A stretch of 64,000 nucleotides of DNA from Planctomycetaceae bacterium (GTDB lineage: Bacteria; Planctomycetota; Planctomycetia; Pirellulales; Pirellulaceae), in the NCBI GenBank assembly GCA_027487485.1, contig JAIYDN010000052.1, positions 124,001-188,000 of the forward strand, written 5' to 3'. Of the stretch, positions 7,388 to 15,854 are shown piece by piece. The position numbers and the translations under genes are program-made. The notes under the pieces were generated by a model. That model did no database searches. It was given only the letters and a program-made list of their open reading frames with translations, and was not told where the DNA came from. Position 1 is the first letter of the stretch. The number at the start of each line of letters is the position of its first letter.

Positions 7388-9700
7388 CAGTTTCTTTTCG
7401 AGATCTGAATCGAAATCATTGGCATGATAGAAACTATTATGCAACGGGACTGCGGCGACCTCGGCGGAAACTTCTTCACCCTCCCCACTTCCAAGATTGG
7501 CGTTAATGAAGTTGATGACTGCGAGAACATCGAAGGCTTCGATACTGCGATTCCCGTCAACATCATAGAACGGAGGTGACACAATGGTTGTGCCGTCTAA
7601 TGGTCTTGCCCCGTTGCGGTTGATCTCGTTGATGATGGCTAGGACATCAAGAGCGGTTACGAACCCGTCATTGTTCACGTCGTGACGGATGTTGGGATTC
7701 TGCCACGGTGGGATCGATAACGATAGTGCGAAATCATTGTGGATACTCGGCGAACCAGCCACAAACGCTGCCGTCCTCAGGCCAGTCGCGGGTTCCACTA
7801 AATCGTACTGGGAGGAGGGAGGTAAAATCTCAAGCTGGTAACTTCCAGTGGCAATCCCCTCAAATAAATAACTTCCATCAGCCCCAGTAGTGCTTTCCGG
7901 AGATGGCCCCACCGCTAAGTTATCAAGCTTGATGCTGGCGTTTCTCATTCCCTTGGCAATGACGTAAGCGATCGCGTTGGTGTCGGTTACCACTCGCATG
8001 GTTGCCGATTGTCCCGCAGCTAGGGTCGGGGTTTCGAATCGACGCAACAGGCTGCCAGACGCTGAGTACGCTTCTAGTCGAGCGACGGTGCCACTATTCA
8101 CTGCAACAACGTCTATGGAAACAAACGAAGTTGGTTGTGCCATGGTCGCACGCAATTGCTGTTGATTGCCACGGAAGTTATCGACGTACGTTCCTTGCGA
8201 GAAAGAGAACGGGCGAAACACGCGGGATCCTGTCGTGGCAGATGCATCTTCGAAAACCGAGACATTTCCCGTCGCATCTTCGCCGATGGCGTCCACCGTA
8301 ACACCATTCTGAAGTCCGACGACAGCTCCGCTCGTTAAATTGTCGGGTTCGATTTTTCGCTGCAGATTCAAGACTTGACGATTGTTATCCACCAATCGAA
8401 CACGAGCGTTGGCGATCGCCGTTTCGACCGCTTGCCAGTCTCCATCTTCATTCTGGTCGTTCCAGACGAAGCCTTGGATGCCAGGAACAGCGGGCTTATC
8501 GCGAGTCAAGCCAAGCTCCCCTTCGAAGACATTGCTCGTCAAAGGCAAAGTCGTTTCCACAGCTCGGATTTGAATGCGGCCTGTGGTGCCACTCGGGACG
8601 GGAATCACTAAGTTGATATCTGTTGAACTTAAATTGGGCGATGCAATGGTGGTCCAATTCCCCTCGTTCCACCGATACTCGATTCTTCCCACGCGGTTGA
8701 TGGAAATGTCATTCTGTTGCCCAGAGCTATTCAAGTTGGGCAGTGTCTGGACGGACGCTCGACCTTGAAAAAGATATTCCGTTCCCTGTGCGTTCAATTG
8801 TCCCAAACCTTCAAGCTTCAACGGGACATCCAACACATCAAAAATCCCATCGCTGTCCGAATCCACCCAGCCCAATTGCGCTAGAGTCGAAGCGGGGCTA
8901 ATCAGATTTTGGTAAGCACGATCCAGAGATCCTCCGCTAGACATGATGCTGTCGGCTTGAACAAAACTTGGATCGGGATTGAAATCGATGGCGTTGGTGT
9001 TTTGAGCGTTATAGTACCCGCGTCTCTGAGTAAAGTTACCCCCGCCTATGTATTCGTCCCGGGCCCAAAACATGTGGCCCGTTTCATGAGTGAACGTGGA
9101 AGCAGGACGCGTGGAAGGTACGATTTCGAACAAACCGCCGGCAAATGCGAATGCGCGATCGAAAGAACCTCCGGTCGCAAAGCTGCCGTCACTGTCATTC
9201 TGCGAATTGACCACGAATATCGTGAACGACCAGTCCGTGCCCAGCTTGACTCGCTGCGATTGATTGAAAGCCCGAATATTAGTTTCAAGCTGACCGCTTT
9301 GCGAAAAGCCAGTGTCGGTAAGAAACCGCGATACCCAATCCACATATCCATTGGACCGCTGCGAGATCGGTTCGTAAGGGGTTGGCGTCGGAGCATCTAA
9401 AAAGGTTCGGTCAATGACAAACTCAAGAGTGTGCACATTGCTCTTCGTGCGAAGCAAGTCGGTCCACCAATCCAGCCCCGTTTCAATATTGGCAAGGACT
9501 GTTGACTTTTGAAGCTCTGTCCAGTTTTCCGTATTCGGATCAATTTGCCCGTTGCTTTCCAGCAGAACCGGGGTCACTGCGATCCGCCCAAGCATGTACT
9601 CGCCGGTATCGTCGGCCGTCGCACCAAACGGAAGCGACGCGAACAATTGCCGCGATTCTAAGGATTCGATACGTAGGGATCTGGTTTTCATACGATTCAT
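7373..9700 (-). CDS. Secreted zinc metalloprotease-like protein with SdrD-B and dockerin domains
   Basis: A 775-residue surface or secreted protein. The N-terminus carries the planctomycete motif 'RIESLESRQLFA'. A metallopeptidase-like region follows, with 'THETGHMFWARDEY' giving HExxH plus a nearby Asp. Next comes an SdrD B-like beta domain ('GFVWNDQNEDGDWQ' with its Ca-binding style loop, and later 'TTGADGSYLFEGIATGSYQL'). At the C-terminus are two dockerin type I repeats ('DVNNDGFVTALDVLAIINEI' and 'DVDGNRSIEAFDVLAVINFI'). Dockerins bind cohesins elsewhere; in planctomycetes the partner is not known. The ATG at 9700 is chosen; a GTG at 9751 is in frame but overlaps its own GGAGG. The last codons and the stop lie in a palindromic repeat. 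Confidence 0.8.
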   Translation of the reverse strand: MNRMKTRSLRIESLESRQLFASLPFGATADDTGEYMLGRIAVTPVLLESNGQIDPNTENWTELQKSTVLANIETGLDWWTDLLRTKSNVHTLEFVIDRTFLDAPTPTPYEPISQRSNGYVDWVSRFLTDTGFSQSGQLETNIRAFNQSQRVKLGTDWSFTIFVVNSQNDSDGSFATGGSFDRAFAFAGGLFEIVPSTRPASTFTHETGHMFWARDEYIGGGNFTQRRGYYNAQNTNAIDFNPDPSFVQADSIMSSGGSLDRAYQNLISPASTLAQLGWVDSDSDGIFDVLDVPLKLEGLGQLNAQGTEYLFQGRASVQTLPNLNSSGQQNDISINRVGRIEYRWNEGNWTTIASPNLSSTDINLVIPVPSGTTGRIQIRAVETTLPLTSNVFEGELGLTRDKPAVPGIQGFVWNDQNEDGDWQAVETAIANARVRLVDNNRQVLNLQRKIEPDNLTSGAVVGLQNGVTVDAIGEDATGNVSVFEDASATTGSRVFRPFSFSQGTYVDNFRGNQQQLRATMAQPTSFVSIDVVAVNSGTVARLEAYSASGSLLRRFETPTLAAGQSATMRVVTDTNAIAYVIAKGMRNASIKLDNLAVGPSPESTTGADGSYLFEGIATGSYQLEILPPSSQYDLVEPATGLRTAAFVAGSPSIHNDFALSLSIPPWQNPNIRHDVNNDGFVTALDVLAIINEINRNGARPLDGTTIVSPPFYDVDGNRSIEAFDVLAVINFINANLGSGEGEEVSAEVAAVPLHNSFYHANDFDSDLEKKLSRRR

Positions 9701-9929
9701 AGGCTTCTTCGATGGCTTTTGGCGGTCAAAAGTTCCTTCGGCCGAATCCACCTCCTTGGTTGAGTCCGTACCTGATTTACCGGAAAATCAGAACGAAATG
9801 GCCAGTTTCACCTTTGGCCCATCGAAACTCGACATCACCTATCTCTTAGCCCATAATCCATGTCCTGGCCGCGAAAGCGATTTCGCTAGCTTACGAAAAG
9901 TCGCGTTCTGTTTACGGTGGGTCGATGAA

Positions 9930-12080
9930 ATGAAATTGGTAGCTGTTATTTGTCTTTCGCTGGTCTTCTCTGTCTCGGTTGCCAGCGATTGCATGTCGCA
10001 AGGGGCAGCAAAAAAACTGCAGGGAGTTTGCTTTAGTTCTGTTCGGGACAATGAAAGTCCAGCTCGGCAAATCCATTCGTTGCCATCGGCCATCGAAGCG
10101 GATGTGGCATTCGCGAGCAAGCTTGCAAATTCGATTCGGACCTACACGATCAGCAGCAGCAGTTACCTGATACCCGAGTTTTGCGAGAAGTATGGTGTCG
10201 ATTGCATCGTTGGGGTATGGATCGGACCTGCACGTTGGCAAAACGAAGCTCAGATCGAACAACTTGTTCAGCTCGCCAAACGTCCGAGCTCCCGGATTCA
10301 ATCGGTCATTATCGGAAATGAAGTACTTCATCGAGCCGATTGCTCGGAAGATCAGCTGATTGAATATGTTCGGGAAGCAAAAGCAAAAACGAACTTTCCA
10401 ATCGCATCCGCAGACACTTGGAAAGCCTGGGTAGAACATCCCCGCTTGGCCGCAGAGGTCGATATTCTCGGGGTACAGATCTACCCTTATTGGGAAGGCC
10501 GATCGGTCGATAGTGCAGCTCAGTATACGCTGCAGCGAATCAGCGAAGTGCAGTCTTTGTACCCCGAAAAACGAATTGTTCTTACGGAATTTGGTTGGCC
10601 AACCGATGGCGAATCCTTGGGCCAAGCGGTTGCTAGTCCAGAAAACGCAGCTCGTTATATGCGAGAAGTCATTCCGTTGCTCGAACAAAAGGGTATTGAG
10701 TACTACTACTTCTCGGTCTGGGACGAAAGCTGGAAGTCTGGTCCGGAAGGAGCCGTCGGAGCTCATTGGGGGCTGTTTGAATCCACAGGAGTCATCAAGC
10801 CAGCCATGAAAGACCTATTACCTAGCGATATCGTTTCGGGCTCGGACCGATCGCCTCGTTCTATTGTGTTTACGTTGAAAGAAGACGAAGGTCGAAACGC
10901 TCCCCTACAAGAACTCGCGGTAGGGAAGCCAGCATCAGAAACAGCGGACGGAGAGGCTGTTCCACGCGGTGCTGGGCTGGAAGCTTCCTCCACGCAAGTG
11001 GGTCGTTCGAGTTACGGAAGCCTCAGGCCCTTGACCGCGATGCCGAGGAAAGAGAATAAGGCCGAAGATTCGCCACAGACGGATAACGAAAACTCAGAAA
11101 AGGAAACACCAGCAAAAGCCGAGGCCTCTTCGGTGCCCAAGCGACCATCGGAACTCAAACGCTCGTCGGAGCCCAAAAGCTCTCTAGAACCCAAACGTCC
11201 GCTGGGCCCCAATGAGATGTACGGCGTTTGTCTGAGTCTGTTTCGAGATGGCGAGACACCTCACTTGGGCATCACGCCCACGCTATCTGAGTTGCGAGCC
11301 GACCTGACCTTTGCATCCGGTTTGTTTCGAGCCGTTCGCACCTACAGCGTATCCGACTCCTTCGCGTTTGTTCCTGAGATGTGTCAAGAGATTGGCGTCG
11401 ACTGCTTTCCAGGAGCGGCGTTAGGAAAGTATCCTTGGCTGAATGACCTTGAGCTGGAGATGCTGATCCGAGTGGGGCAAAGCGGAAACCCAAAAGTAAA
11501 AGCATTGATCGTCGGCAATGAAGTGCTTCATCGCGGAGACTTTTCCGTGGAACAGTACATTCAGTATGTTCGACAAGTCAAAAAGAAAGTTCAGGTCCCC
11601 GTGGCGACTGCGGAACTATTGCACAGTTGGCTAGAACATCCCGAACTTGCTGCCGAAGTGGATGTTCTAGGCGTTCAGATTTATCCCTACTGGGGCGGAC
11701 TGAACATTGAAAAAGCTGCTTTAAACACCTTGGAGAGTGTTCAGCAGTTACAAAAGACATTCCCTGACAAACAGATCATCTTGACGGAATTCGGGTGGCC
11801 TACCGATGGCGGAACAATTGGCGAAGCAGTGGCAAGTCCCGAAAATGCGGGGCGTTATCTCAAGGAAGTTATCCCGTTGTTAAACCAAAACAAAATAGAC
11901 TACTTATACTTTGCGATGACCGACGAAAAATGGAAGCAACGCGATGAAGGTGGACCTGGGCCGCATTGGGGATTGCTGACATCGGATGGCAAAGTCAAAC
12001 CAGCATTTCAAGCATTGCTCCCAGACAACTCAACGAAAGGCATGGACCGCCCAGCGAGGAAATTGAACTATGGCGAATGA
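9930..12080 (+). CDS. Secreted GH17-like beta-glucanase with two tandem catalytic domains
   Basis: A 717-residue exported glycosidase. A signal peptide ('VAVICLSLVFSVSVAS') precedes two homologous (beta/alpha)8 domains at about residues 30-300 and 428-705, joined by a Glu/Lys/Pro/Ser-rich linker. Each has the acid/base motif 'GNEVLHR' (E131, E531) and the nucleophile motif 'TEFGWPTDG' (E220, E620), along with 'VQIYPYW'. This pattern is that of glycosyl hydrolase family 17 and the related exo-beta-1,3-glucanases. Both domains keep both glutamates, so both should be active. The ATG at 9930 directly precedes the signal peptide; the frame is open further upstream without protein-like content. The stop overlaps the DoxX-like gene by 11 bp. 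Confidence 0.85.
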   Translation: MKLVAVICLSLVFSVSVASDCMSQGAAKKLQGVCFSSVRDNESPARQIHSLPSAIEADVAFASKLANSIRTYTISSSSYLIPEFCEKYGVDCIVGVWIGPARWQNEAQIEQLVQLAKRPSSRIQSVIIGNEVLHRADCSEDQLIEYVREAKAKTNFPIASADTWKAWVEHPRLAAEVDILGVQIYPYWEGRSVDSAAQYTLQRISEVQSLYPEKRIVLTEFGWPTDGESLGQAVASPENAARYMREVIPLLEQKGIEYYYFSVWDESWKSGPEGAVGAHWGLFESTGVIKPAMKDLLPSDIVSGSDRSPRSIVFTLKEDEGRNAPLQELAVGKPASETADGEAVPRGAGLEASSTQVGRSSYGSLRPLTAMPRKENKAEDSPQTDNENSEKETPAKAEASSVPKRPSELKRSSEPKSSLEPKRPLGPNEMYGVCLSLFRDGETPHLGITPTLSELRADLTFASGLFRAVRTYSVSDSFAFVPEMCQEIGVDCFPGAALGKYPWLNDLELEMLIRVGQSGNPKVKALIVGNEVLHRGDFSVEQYIQYVRQVKKKVQVPVATAELLHSWLEHPELAAEVDVLGVQIYPYWGGLNIEKAALNTLESVQQLQKTFPDKQIILTEFGWPTDGGTIGEAVASPENAGRYLKEVIPLLNQNKIDYLYFAMTDEKWKQRDEGGPGPHWGLLTSDGKVKPAFQALLPDNSTKGMDRPARKLNYGE

Positions 12081-12489
12081 GAACCAAGAAATCAGCCCTT
12101 CGTTGCATTCAGAACCGGTCAAGCTTTCCAAGTGGATTTGGGTAGGTCGCGGCATCAGTACGTTGCTTATCTTGATGCTGACCATGAGTGCGGTCATGAA
12201 GTTCGTTCAACCAGCAGGCATGGCAGAAGAGTTCACGAAGCTGGGCTACCCGATGGAGTTGGCTTTTGGGTTAGGGATGGTCGAGATCATTTGCGTTATC
12301 CTTTATGCAATTCCCCGCAGTAGTGTCCTCGGCGCGATTTTGCTAACAGGCTATCTTGGAGGTGCGATTTCGACGCATTTGCGCGTTGGGGATCCCATCA
12401 TCGCGCCAATCATCCTGGGCGTTCTGGTTTGGGTCGGTCTGTATCTTCGTGATTCGCAAGTTCGGAACTTGATTCCTATTCGGATGTAG
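12070..12489 (+). CDS. DoxX-like family membrane protein
   Basis: A 139-residue membrane protein with four hydrophobic helices (about residues 27-43, 62-82, 88-100 and 109-125). 'MSAVMKFVQPAGMAEEFTKL', followed by 'GYPMELAFGLGMVEIICVI' and 'GAILLTGYLGGAISTHLRVG', is typical of the DoxX-like family, which is found in bacterial inner membranes and whose biochemical role is mostly unknown. The ATG lies within the last 11 bp of the glucanase gene, so translation is probably coupled. The AmmeMemoRadiSam fusion gene starts 14 bp downstream, making a likely three-gene unit. Confidence 0.85.
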   Translation: MANENQEISPSLHSEPVKLSKWIWVGRGISTLLILMLTMSAVMKFVQPAGMAEEFTKLGYPMELAFGLGMVEIICVILYAIPRSSVLGAILLTGYLGGAISTHLRVGDPIIAPIILGVLVWVGLYLRDSQVRNLIPIRM

Positions 12490-12503: not shown

Positions 12504-15500
12504 ATGAGCGATCTCCACGTGTTGCGATCCGATTCTTATCCGGGCAAGTGGTGGCATCGCGATCTGGATTCCGGGCGGCCCGATTCCTGGCGGATTGTGT
12601 GCGATCTTTGTCCACGGCAATGTTCGATGAAGGAAGGGGATCGAGGCTTTTGTTTCGTTCGAAAAATCGAAGCGGGGCAATTGGTTCTCGACACCTACGG
12701 AAAGAGCACGGGCTTTTGCATCGATCCGATCGAAAAGAAACCACTCAATCACTTTTATCCCGGCACCAGTGTGCTGTCGTTCGGAACAGCGGGCTGCAAT
12801 CTCGGTTGCCAGTTCTGTCAAAACTGGGATATTTCGAAATCACGAGAAGTCTCGAAGCTTAGTTCTGTCGCTGAGCCTGAATTGATTGCGCATGCGGCTA
12901 AGGAACTGGGGTGCAAGAGTGTTGCATTCACTTACAACGACCCCGTCGTCTGGGCCGAATACGCAATCGATACGGCGAAGGCATGTCGGTCCCTTGGAAT
13001 CCAAAGTGTCGCGGTGACTGCGGGATATATGTCTCCGGAGGCACGGCGCGAGTTCTATGTTCACATGGATGCTGCCAACGTGGACCTTAAGGCTTTCACG
13101 GAGGATTTCTACCGCAAGATAACTTATTCGCACCTTGAACCAGTGCTCGACACGTTGCGATATCTGAAACGTGAGACCGACGTATGGTTCGAGATTACCA
13201 ATTTGATCATTCCACAGACGAATGACTCGGATGATGAACTCCAGCGTATGTGCGATTGGATTTTAAAGGAAGTCGGATGCGAAGTGCCTGTGCATTTCTC
13301 TGCATTCCATCCAGACTTTCGTATGACGGATCGACCGCGTACGCCTCACGAAACGCTACTCAAAGCGCATGCGATTGCCAAGCGATGTGGACTTCGGTAT
13401 CCCTACGTCGGGAATGTGCATGATGTTGAACATAGCTCGACCTATTGCTGGTCCTGCAATGAAATGCTCATCGAGCGCGATTGGTACCAACTTGGTAAGT
13501 ACGGGGTTCTGGGTAATCTGTGCGGTAGGTGTGGAGCGCCACAGGCAGGGCGGTTCGATACCAAGCCAGGTGACTGGGGCAGAAAACGCCAACCGGTAAA
13601 CTTGGATTCATTCCGTCCAAAGCCAACGAATTTGGTATCATTGCCGATAACTACAACGAGTGCTCGTTCAAGTGAGCCACCGTCTGATACCATCTCGGCT
13701 GGCCGACTTTTTCAAGCCAGCTTATCCGCTACGAATGCTGAGGAAGCTATGACCAGTCCAATTCTTACTGCCCCAATCAAGCTAGAGATGCTAAAGCTCG
13801 ATGAACTCAGCGAAGAACAAAAAGGGAGCATTCATAAAGCTGCGCAGATTGTGGTGATTGCGACGGCATGCAACAAACGAGTTACCAATGACTGGTTGAA
13901 TTTACTGGGTCCTTTGGCTGACTTGCATGTGATGGGAATGTTTACGACGCTAACCCGTGGCGAACAGCTTCGCGGGTGCTGCGGCTTTCTAGGCCGACCA
14001 ACCAAACTCAAAGAAGCAGTGTTGTCCTCGGCCCAGAAAACGACGAACGAAGATGCGAGGATGCCTGTCATCTCAACGATCGAGTTGCCGTATCTGAAGA
14101 TGGACGTTTCGCTGTTGTCCTCACCGATTGTAGTGATGGGGCCCGGGGCGGAAAGAATCAAGCATGTCCAAGTTGGCAAACATGGGCTCAAGATCACGTT
14201 GGGAAGCCAATCGGGATTACTGCTTCCAAGCGTGCCTGTCGACCAAAAATGGAATGAAGAAGAGTTTCTGAAAGGGGTTTGCCGCAAAGCGGGTCTGCCT
14301 GAAAACGCCTGGCAAGACGAACTCGCCGTTTTGGAAACCTTCGAGGGATTAATCATCGAGGGACAAATTGAATCCGCAAACATGCCATCCGAGATTCCCA
14401 TCAAGATGCCTCCGGGGGATATCGAAAGTCTCCAGCGATTGCGTCAAGTTGCGACTAATAATTTGATCGCGTTTGCAAGCGGTTCGACTCCCAGCTATTA
14501 CGCGCTCAATGCCATGGATGGCAACGTCCACGGGATGGTGCTTTCCGTTATCGACACGGTCAGCCGCCAGCCACTGGCTCACTGGATCAAGTCGTCTCTG
14601 CGTCAAGGCATGCCATTGCAGTCGAGCCTGTTTGATCTGTGCAAAGCAGCTGCAGATGTTCTTTCTAAAGCTAGGTTCCAAAAAGAAACGGATATCGAAC
14701 TAGCCATTACAATTCTGTTTGATCCGACCCATCACGGAAGCATTCAAGCTGAAGACTGGGACGGTGAACAGCTGAAGAGCTCGCTCAGTCGATGTGAATT
14801 GGAGGGCCTTTCGTCGAAACAACGCGCGATCGTAACAGCTTGTGGTGATTATGCCGCAGTTTCTTTCGACTCCAACAAATCCATTATCGAATTAACCACC
14901 GAAGCCGCCCTGGAAGTGCGTACCCGTCGCAACCCGGTAGGCGTTTACTCGATGGCGTGCATTTCGACCGCAACGTCTTTGCTGGCCAGCAACAGAACAA
15001 AAGCCGTCAGTGATAATGTGATTCGTCAGCCAGCGGTCGCGGAAGGATTTTATCCATCGAATCCAGAAGCAAGACGGCAGCTTGTGTCGGAATTCAAAGG
15101 GCAGGTACCCGCCGAAATTCAAGCGAAACCGGCATTGGCACTGATGACTCCTCATGCTGGTTTGCGTTTCAGCGGGCAAGTTGCCATGACGGCCTGGTGC
15201 AGTGTTGAGATTCCACCAACGCTATTGATTATCGGTCCCAAACATACCGCGCTCGGACGCGATTGGGCGATTTCCCCATCGCAAGCCTGGGAAATGCCCG
15301 GGGGGGAACATTGGGACGTGGATCTTGAACTCGCGAACAAAATCGCCAACGAAGTGGAAGGCATGGAGTTGGATTTTGCCGCCCATGCGCGTGAACATGG
15401 AACTGAAATGCAGTTGCCGATTTTAGAGGGGTGCACACACTACCAAACGAAACCGAAGATCGTGGCGATTGCAATGAGCGGCGCGACTCAAGAAGAAGTC

Positions 15501-15854
15501 GATCGCTGCGCAGAGCAACTCGCGAACGTGCTCCGGAACATGCCCGTGCGTCCTCTCATGGTGATATCGAGCGACCTCAATCACTATCTGCCTGAAGAAG
15601 AAAATCGACGACGCGACCGACTTGCAATCGACGCCATGTTGACGGGTGATCCCGCTAAGCTGATTGAAGCGTGCCAGACCCATCAAATCACGATGTGTGG
15701 TTTGATTCCTGCCGCAGTCATCATGCAAACGTTGATCAACTTGGGCGAAAAGTTTCAGGTAGAAGAAATTGTTTACAACAACAGCTCGCATCGAGGCAAC
15801 AAAGACCGCGTCGTTGGATATGCAGGCGTCGTGTTTCGCCCCGTTGCGGTCTAA
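12504..15854 (+). CDS. Three-domain fusion: radical SAM + AMMECR1 + Memo (AmmeMemoRadiSam system)
   Basis: A 1116-residue protein joining all three parts of the AmmeMemoRadiSam system. Residues ~1-360 are the radical SAM enzyme: the cluster motif 'CNLGCQFC' (C98, C102, C105), an early 'CDLCPRQC' (33-40) and a late CxxC pair (C315/C318, C340/C343) that may hold zinc. Residues ~430-625 are AMMECR1, with 'GEQLRGCCGFLGRP' and 'IELPYLKMDVSLLSS'. Residues ~640-830 are unassigned. Residues ~840-1115 are Memo, keeping H884 ('MTPHAGLRFSG'), H914 ('GPKHTALG') and C1065, the positions matching the metal ligands of human MEMO1. The system is usually encoded by separate genes and its substrate is unknown. 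The ATG at 12504 follows GAAGG. Confidence 0.9.
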   Translation: MSDLHVLRSDSYPGKWWHRDLDSGRPDSWRIVCDLCPRQCSMKEGDRGFCFVRKIEAGQLVLDTYGKSTGFCIDPIEKKPLNHFYPGTSVLSFGTAGCNLGCQFCQNWDISKSREVSKLSSVAEPELIAHAAKELGCKSVAFTYNDPVVWAEYAIDTAKACRSLGIQSVAVTAGYMSPEARREFYVHMDAANVDLKAFTEDFYRKITYSHLEPVLDTLRYLKRETDVWFEITNLIIPQTNDSDDELQRMCDWILKEVGCEVPVHFSAFHPDFRMTDRPRTPHETLLKAHAIAKRCGLRYPYVGNVHDVEHSSTYCWSCNEMLIERDWYQLGKYGVLGNLCGRCGAPQAGRFDTKPGDWGRKRQPVNLDSFRPKPTNLVSLPITTTSARSSEPPSDTISAGRLFQASLSATNAEEAMTSPILTAPIKLEMLKLDELSEEQKGSIHKAAQIVVIATACNKRVTNDWLNLLGPLADLHVMGMFTTLTRGEQLRGCCGFLGRPTKLKEAVLSSAQKTTNEDARMPVISTIELPYLKMDVSLLSSPIVVMGPGAERIKHVQVGKHGLKITLGSQSGLLLPSVPVDQKWNEEEFLKGVCRKAGLPENAWQDELAVLETFEGLIIEGQIESANMPSEIPIKMPPGDIESLQRLRQVATNNLIAFASGSTPSYYALNAMDGNVHGMVLSVIDTVSRQPLAHWIKSSLRQGMPLQSSLFDLCKAAADVLSKARFQKETDIELAITILFDPTHHGSIQAEDWDGEQLKSSLSRCELEGLSSKQRAIVTACGDYAAVSFDSNKSIIELTTEAALEVRTRRNPVGVYSMACISTATSLLASNRTKAVSDNVIRQPAVAEGFYPSNPEARRQLVSEFKGQVPAEIQAKPALALMTPHAGLRFSGQVAMTAWCSVEIPPTLLIIGPKHTALGRDWAISPSQAWEMPGGEHWDVDLELANKIANEVEGMELDFAAHAREHGTEMQLPILEGCTHYQTKPKIVAIAMSGATQEEVDRCAEQLANVLRNMPVRPLMVISSDLNHYLPEEENRRRDRLAIDAMLTGDPAKLIEACQTHQITMCGLIPAAVIMQTLINLGEKFQVEEIVYNNSSHRGNKDRVVGYAGVVFRPVAV

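Follow-up and report, generated by a model that had tools for sequence, protein, structure and literature searches.

A planctomycete radical SAM-AMMECR1-Memo chain very probably contains a second AMMECR1 domain and occurs with two kinds of radical SAM head

AmmeMemoRadiSam systems are recognized by three NCBIfam models, TIGR04335 for AMMECR1, TIGR04336 for Memo and TIGR04337 for the radical S-adenosylmethionine (SAM) part, and are found elsewhere as separate genes or with Memo and AMMECR1 fused in that order. Burroughs et al. 2019 reportedly described Memo-AMMECR1-radical SAM contexts and are said to have suggested nucleotide-base or isoprenoid modification. A later paper mentions "recently-described Memo-Ammecr1 systems" with reference to that study (PMC7159879). 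Our search of open-access full text returned no experimental study and no assigned reaction for bacterial AmmeMemoRadiSam, and AMMECR1, MEMO1 and "radical SAM" were found together in no paper. Human AMMECR1 and MEMO1 are tied to disease or cancer, and two articles give their molecular function as unknown (PMC5502304, PMC11081632). Here we consider a gene from a Planctomycetaceae bacterium (assembly GCA_027487485.1, contig JAIYDN010000052.1, positions 124,001 to 188,000; this whole stretch of 64,000 nucleotides (nt) is called the window below) that carries all three parts on one polypeptide. The system itself is of a known kind, and the chain may already have been seen before, most subscription papers and domain-architecture databases lying outside our search; the new facts are a hidden domain, very probably a second AMMECR1, and two kinds of radical SAM head.

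An earlier note on this DNA described one chain of 1116 residues in the order radical SAM, AMMECR1, Memo, which is borne out by an intact frame and by Pfam and NCBIfam matches in the same order (Pfam: Radical_SAM at residues 95-253, AMMECR1 at 476-615, Memo at 843-1110). All three NCBIfam models beat their curated cut-offs, AMMECR1 narrowly (TIGR04335, 106.4 bits versus 99 at residues 477-615), and by these models the chain belongs to AmmeMemoRadiSam. The source genome (7.49 Mb, 114 contigs) holds a single Memo and a single AMMECR1 match, both within this frame. The 1:1:1 stoichiometry proposed in the same note has to be revised to what is very probably 1:2:1, with a hidden AMMECR1-like domain between AMMECR1 and Memo. 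We abbreviate the radical SAM part as rS, AMMECR1 as A, the extra domain as X and Memo as B.

Roughly 190 residues separate A from B, and neither Pfam nor NCBIfam recognizes them at E<=0.001 in any of 51 members. The Pfam AMMECR1 model did not match any of the 51 X sequences at E<=1; their best Pfam match is to another family (E 0.027), their best NCBIfam match, a hydrogenase maturation protease, concerns one member only (E 0.0027), and a sequence search of the PDB with X found nothing that matched, the best E being 0.67. Profile comparison gave a different picture. With hhalign, an X profile (61 filtered sequences) aligned to the A profile at a probability of 94.0% over 152 columns (E 1.5e-7 for one comparison), the control pairs staying at 0.2 (X-B), 3.9 (X-rS), 0.2 (A-B), 0.3 (A-rS) and 0.4% (B-rS). 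An AlphaFold2 model of X (predicted local distance difference test, pLDDT, 92.7; predicted template modeling score, pTM, 0.87) was compared with the PDB by Foldseek, and the sole matches at E<=0.001 were the archaeal AMMECR1 structures 1zq7, 1vaj and 1wsc (E 1.6e-5 to 2.3e-4), with modest template modeling (TM) scores of 0.41-0.50 by query length. Because both profile and predicted fold match AMMECR1, we very probably have in X a second AMMECR1 domain that has diverged, new as far as our search reached. Compared with the archaeal proteins it has the same fold at weaker scores, lies below Pfam detection and is without the RGCxG motif, which is absent from the X alignment; A, by comparison, shares ~34% identity with 1vaj where the two align.

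X is not mere debris, since it has conserved positions of its own: in the numbering of the aligned segment, G40, P43 and Q86 are present in 51/51 rows. It is also the part that changes fastest, with 11 invariant columns of 198 among 20 chains (rS 164/344, A 37/145, B 46/278). A search of 392 genomes of Planctomycetota found a strong X match in 13, all within the class; the frame is 1062-1133 amino acids (aa) long in 12 of them and 705 aa in the remaining one. Systems with two AMMECR1 units recur, since at 14/14 loci of the phylum with a B-A fusion gene (L259-L272) a second, standalone AMMECR1 gene follows and both copies have LRGCxG intact; these loci had been chosen because the search listing showed two adjoining AMMECR1 matches (genomes G153, G217, G122, G300, G366, G292, G088, G345, G206, G228, G039, G041, G322 and G070). 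The presence of X suggests a paired mode of action for AMMECR1.

Three further loci touch on X. A 743-aa frame (L218, G002:C7) has a weak X match of 20.3 bits over 54 positions, and 16.5 bits in another search, which is probably chance. At L150 (G393) and L241 (G630) an insert of 192 or 193 aa sits between A and B, in the place of X. Neither insert has detectable similarity to X or A; they are perhaps further diverged copies of X.

The second finding concerns the head. Four genomes of the family that we label f115 have frames of 1084-1109 aa with the same domain order and an rS of deeply different lineage. Forcing the rS of f115 and of the other chains into one clade is rejected (log-likelihood 336.6 lower; approximately unbiased (AU) test, p-AU 8.3e-7). 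A smaller rS tree with support values places the chain rS in a clade (100/99) with the f115 rS outside it, in a group (100/100) that also contains a Chloroflexota sequence and unfused rS from the class. This tree has no long rows and its bootstrap was not fully settled (0.987); the larger rS tree carried a long-branch warning. For the rest of the chain the trees read differently: the f115 sequences fall inside the chain clade in the B tree, and chains and separate forms split at 100 in the A+B tree. The A+B data do not separate a nested from a sister placement of the f115 A-X-B relative to the other chains (p-AU 0.316), so that an exchanged head and two independent joinings are indistinguishable. 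The trees indicate that a single kind of A-X-B module goes with two heads of deeply different lineage, acquired either by exchange or in two separate joinings, which is new here; an exchanged head would suggest that rS acts on the A-X-B module.

The chain is widespread in the class. Among 397 genomes surveyed (rS counted at E<=1e-60, a chain defined as rS in a frame of at least 900 residues), 110 have rS and 70 of these carry a chain-type frame. This count answers the earlier question of whether the same fusion order recurs across planctomycetes, and it shows the chain to be no assembly artefact. Besides the window, 69 chains were examined with our own profiles: 66 are rS-A-X-B and three are rS-A-B, the order of rS, A and B being identical in all 69 and in the window. 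Chain-bearing genomes fall in families f1, f2, f4, f5, f115 and f116; 19 of the full-length chain loci that we used came from named public genomes (titles include Pirellula and Blastopirellula). No second divergent copy adjoining the chain is seen with clean profiles.

Twenty-nine of the other 40 rS genomes were also examined. They comprise 12 with rS alone in the stretch, six with A-B plus rS, three with A-X-B plus rS, three with B plus rS, two with all parts separate, one with B-A plus rS, one rS-A truncated where its contig ends, and one rS followed by part of X. For 15 genomes whose rS was unclear or unlinked, a Memo search found Memo elsewhere in 10, four of them with Memo in an A-X-B frame, one of these (G576) cut by a contig end. 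Two statements of the earlier note are qualified by these counts. That the parts are normally separate genes is only partly right: other phyla have B-A fusions, and so does the rest of this phylum. The covalent fusion is indeed kept widely but is not obligatory, because in some relatives rS is encoded apart from A-B or A-X-B. Some interrupted arrangements were also seen: in G576 (L159:3908-5422 and L216) rS is directly followed by the first half of X, with the contig-end-cut A-X-B frame on another contig; in G661 (L217) the tail of an rS frame lies at the edge of a contig and is followed after 21 nt by an A-X-B frame of 691 aa, and a further contig ends inside an rS gene.

The note's statement that radical SAM cysteines, AMMECR1 core and Memo metal ligands are all kept holds throughout: C98/C102/C105 of rS, R490/C492/G494 of A and H884/H914/C1065 of B are invariant in 48/48 aligned chains, and the chain shares its conserved cysteines and ligands with unfused members of the system. 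Larger alignments give the same result. Eleven rS cysteines in three sets are each invariant among 195 fused and unfused rows, in which some genomes appear twice as duplicate loci. Two of these sets lie outside the CxxxCxxC motif: C33/C36/C40/C50 is a possible extra metal site, and C315/C318/C340/C343 may form a zinc ribbon or an extra cluster. In A, R490, C492 and G494 are present in 67/67 chain rows, with C492 and G494 also kept in 47/47 non-chain rows; in B, H884, H914 and C1065 are present in 51/51 chain rows and 59/59 others. The latter three align with H49, H81 and C244 of human MEMO1 (MEMO1 numbering by our own count), residues that are iron and copper ligands according to PMC11081632, and B has this two-His-one-Cys set as a predicted metal site.

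Structure comparison agrees with these assignments. Parts of the full-length model (pLDDT 88.2, pTM 0.61) match MEMO1 (TM 0.80 by target length; PDB 7kq8, 3bcz), AMMECR1 1vaj (0.79) and the pyruvate formate-lyase (PFL) activating enzyme 3c8f (0.76), which with 3cb8 is the nearest solved fold to rS. MEMO1 shares the His-His-Cys site and is a separate protein, unlike B, which is one domain of a chain. The Memo fold is also related to extradiol dioxygenases of the LigB/DesB kind (3wku_B, E 1.3e-5), whose His-His-Glu iron site is absent here: C1065 occupies the third position, a Cys for Glu replacement that MEMO1 has as well, and the same source reports that MEMO1 was inactive as a dioxygenase on the substrates tested (PMC11081632).

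Linker lengths, taken from profile boundaries in 66 chains, are 21-151 residues between rS and A (median 45.5), 14-54 between A and X (median 18) and 4-15 between X and B (median 6). The rS-A linker is unconserved (0/70 columns invariant in 20 rows) and in the model of the window's chain its residues 373-424 fall below pLDDT 50. From linkers and model, the chain can be read as an A-X-B module plus a mobile rS head.

We tentatively read the chain as a tethered radical enzyme, a view to which we give a little less than an even chance: the rS head would act on a molecule bound by A-X-B, and Memo would provide the redox partner site. The gene encodes a complete AmmeMemoRadiSam system in one polypeptide. 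The tethered head would reductively cleave SAM and abstract a hydrogen from a molecule held by A-X-B, most likely bound in the RGCxG pocket of A; X would take the place of a second AMMECR1 subunit and link A with Memo, whose metal site would perform or complete a redox step on the same molecule. As to what the molecule may be, a survey of recognition elements for ribosomally synthesized and post-translationally modified peptides (RiPPs) mentions predicted fusions of these elements with Memo-like proteins (PMC12710340), which could hint at peptide substrates. The earlier note had argued that the three parts act as one enzyme, and joint action is favoured because rS co-occurs with A and B and because the chain is kept in most rS-bearing genomes of the class. 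In a phylum sample of 367 genomes (handles 000-366; 184 rS-positive, 183 rS-negative), A and B were both found in 159/184 rS-positive and in 15/183 rS-negative genomes: in this phylum the presence of rS goes with that of A plus B. Also in favour of the tethered enzyme are the active sites kept in all aligned chains, the two rS lineages joined to A-X-B in one order, the recurring AMMECR1 pairs, the lack of a widely shared neighbour and the absence of glycyl-radical domains from the chain-bearing genomes tested.

Several observations weigh against a tethered enzyme. No activity came up in the literature searched, and the genomic context of 55 loci gives no clue to a substrate. Twenty-five of the 184 rS genomes have no match for A or B or both (13 have B only, six A only, six neither) and the 15 rS-negative genomes have A and B all the same; drafts and thresholds may explain part of both. 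X is missing from the rS-A-B locus L184 and from six loci with A-B plus rS, and since these arrangements look working it is not essential to the family. Several near relatives, including two genomes of the same genus, are without rS, so the system is dispensable. The full model fixes the inter-domain geometry poorly (pTM 0.61, no inter-domain error given): with the disordered rS-A linker, which varies from 21 to 151 residues, it neither shows nor excludes contacts between the active sites, the point that the note had wished to see checked.

The same evidence can be turned toward a maturase in cis, a doubtful reading that is nevertheless the main rival: rS would modify its own chain, for example the Cys or Gly of RGCxG or Cys1065, the long flexible linker letting one head reach its own targets, and the modified A-X-B would be the working enzyme. 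The PFL activating enzymes nearest to rS modify a protein, C492 and G494 are invariant in chain and other rows alike, the linker is variable and disordered, and an exchange of heads is as compatible with a maturase as with an enzyme. Speaking against it, A and B occur in those 15 of 183 genomes that have no rS, and human AMMECR1 is not known to have an rS partner. The human protein has the same motif, as LRGCIG (PMC5502304).

Fusion could also serve supply only, which we think rather unlikely: one transcript would give equal amounts, the domains working independently or loosely complexed as with separate genes. Relatives with separate rS and A-B or A-X-B, and the length and lack of conservation of the rS-A linker, fit this. 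It is harder to square with the same order across all six chain-bearing families, with X-B linkers of just 4-15 residues and with two rS lineages joined to A-X-B in the same place.

That rS activates a separate glycyl-radical enzyme, with A and B as regulators, is very improbable. A sub-threshold likeness to activase models speaks for it (TIGR02493 54.3 bits, far below the cut-off of 231.75). The glycyl-radical domain PF01228, however, was found in 0/15 chain-bearing genomes tested (control positive in 3/14 named genomes, E. coli included), which largely refutes this reading; rS also differs from the PFL activating enzyme in its extra cysteine sets. That the chain is an artefact of assembly or sequencing, or that its gene is decaying, is scarcely conceivable, broken frames at L015 and L019 (maybe draft errors) standing against intact frames in 70 genomes and invariant catalytic residues; 13 of the chain-bearing genomes are single-contig assemblies, which disposes of the frameshift worry raised in the note.

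Returning to the tethered enzyme, we venture a wider speculation, itself something of a long shot. X might found a new AMMECR1-like family, the motif-less half of an AMMECR1 pair that presents substrate between a swinging, exchangeable rS head and the Memo site for an undescribed radical reaction, and human AMMECR1 and MEMO1 might be remnants of the same machine. With three parts, two of which have human relatives, in fixed ratio on one polypeptide, a puzzling system becomes testable as a single molecule. The features of the locus are collected in Table 1.

Table 1. Features of the chain gene and its upstream neighbour, in window coordinates.
Feature	Position	Strand	Remarks
DoxX-like gene	12070..12489	+	ends 15 nt upstream of the chain gene
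rS-A-X-B chain gene	12504..15854	+	one ATG-start frame, 1116 aa, no internal stop
rS part, AmmeMemoSam_rS	12582..13604	+	aa 27-367; TIGR04337 580.5 bits, cut-off 220
N-terminal cysteine set C33/C36/C40/C50	12600..12653	+	invariant in 195/195 rows
Radical SAM cluster motif CxxxCxxC, C98/C102/C105	12795..12818	+	invariant in 195/195 rows
C-terminal CxxC...CxxC set C315/C318/C340/C343	13446..13532	+	invariant in 195/195 rows
rS-A linker, predicted disordered	13620..13775	+	aa 373-424; pLDDT < 50
A domain, AMMECR1	13791..14363	+	aa about 430-620; RGCCG at aa 490-494 (13971-13985)
Domain X, very probably a second AMMECR1-like domain, without RGCxG	14397..15005	+	aa about 632-834
Memo domain B	15024..15836	+	aa 841-1111; TIGR04336 222.5 bits, cut-off 26
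Memo ligand codons	H884 15153, H914 15243, C1065 15696	+	from alignment to MEMO1

Upstream of the chain, a frame at 9552-12489 with two glycoside hydrolase 17 (GH17)-like stretches overlaps the DoxX-like gene. The DoxX-like and GH17 genes recur only beside locus L002 among the 55 loci, and the DoxX-like gene probably lies outside the system. A promoter and terminator scan found sites no more numerous than in shuffles, and PADLOC gave no match. No family is shared beside more than 4 of the 55 loci (flanks being unequal and some short), as expected of a self-sufficient unit. The most often shared neighbour is an unrelated upstream open reading frame on the opposite strand at L008, L009, L010 and L021, of 1038 aa in L008 and 1150 aa in L009 and cut in the other two, whose product is probably membrane-anchored.

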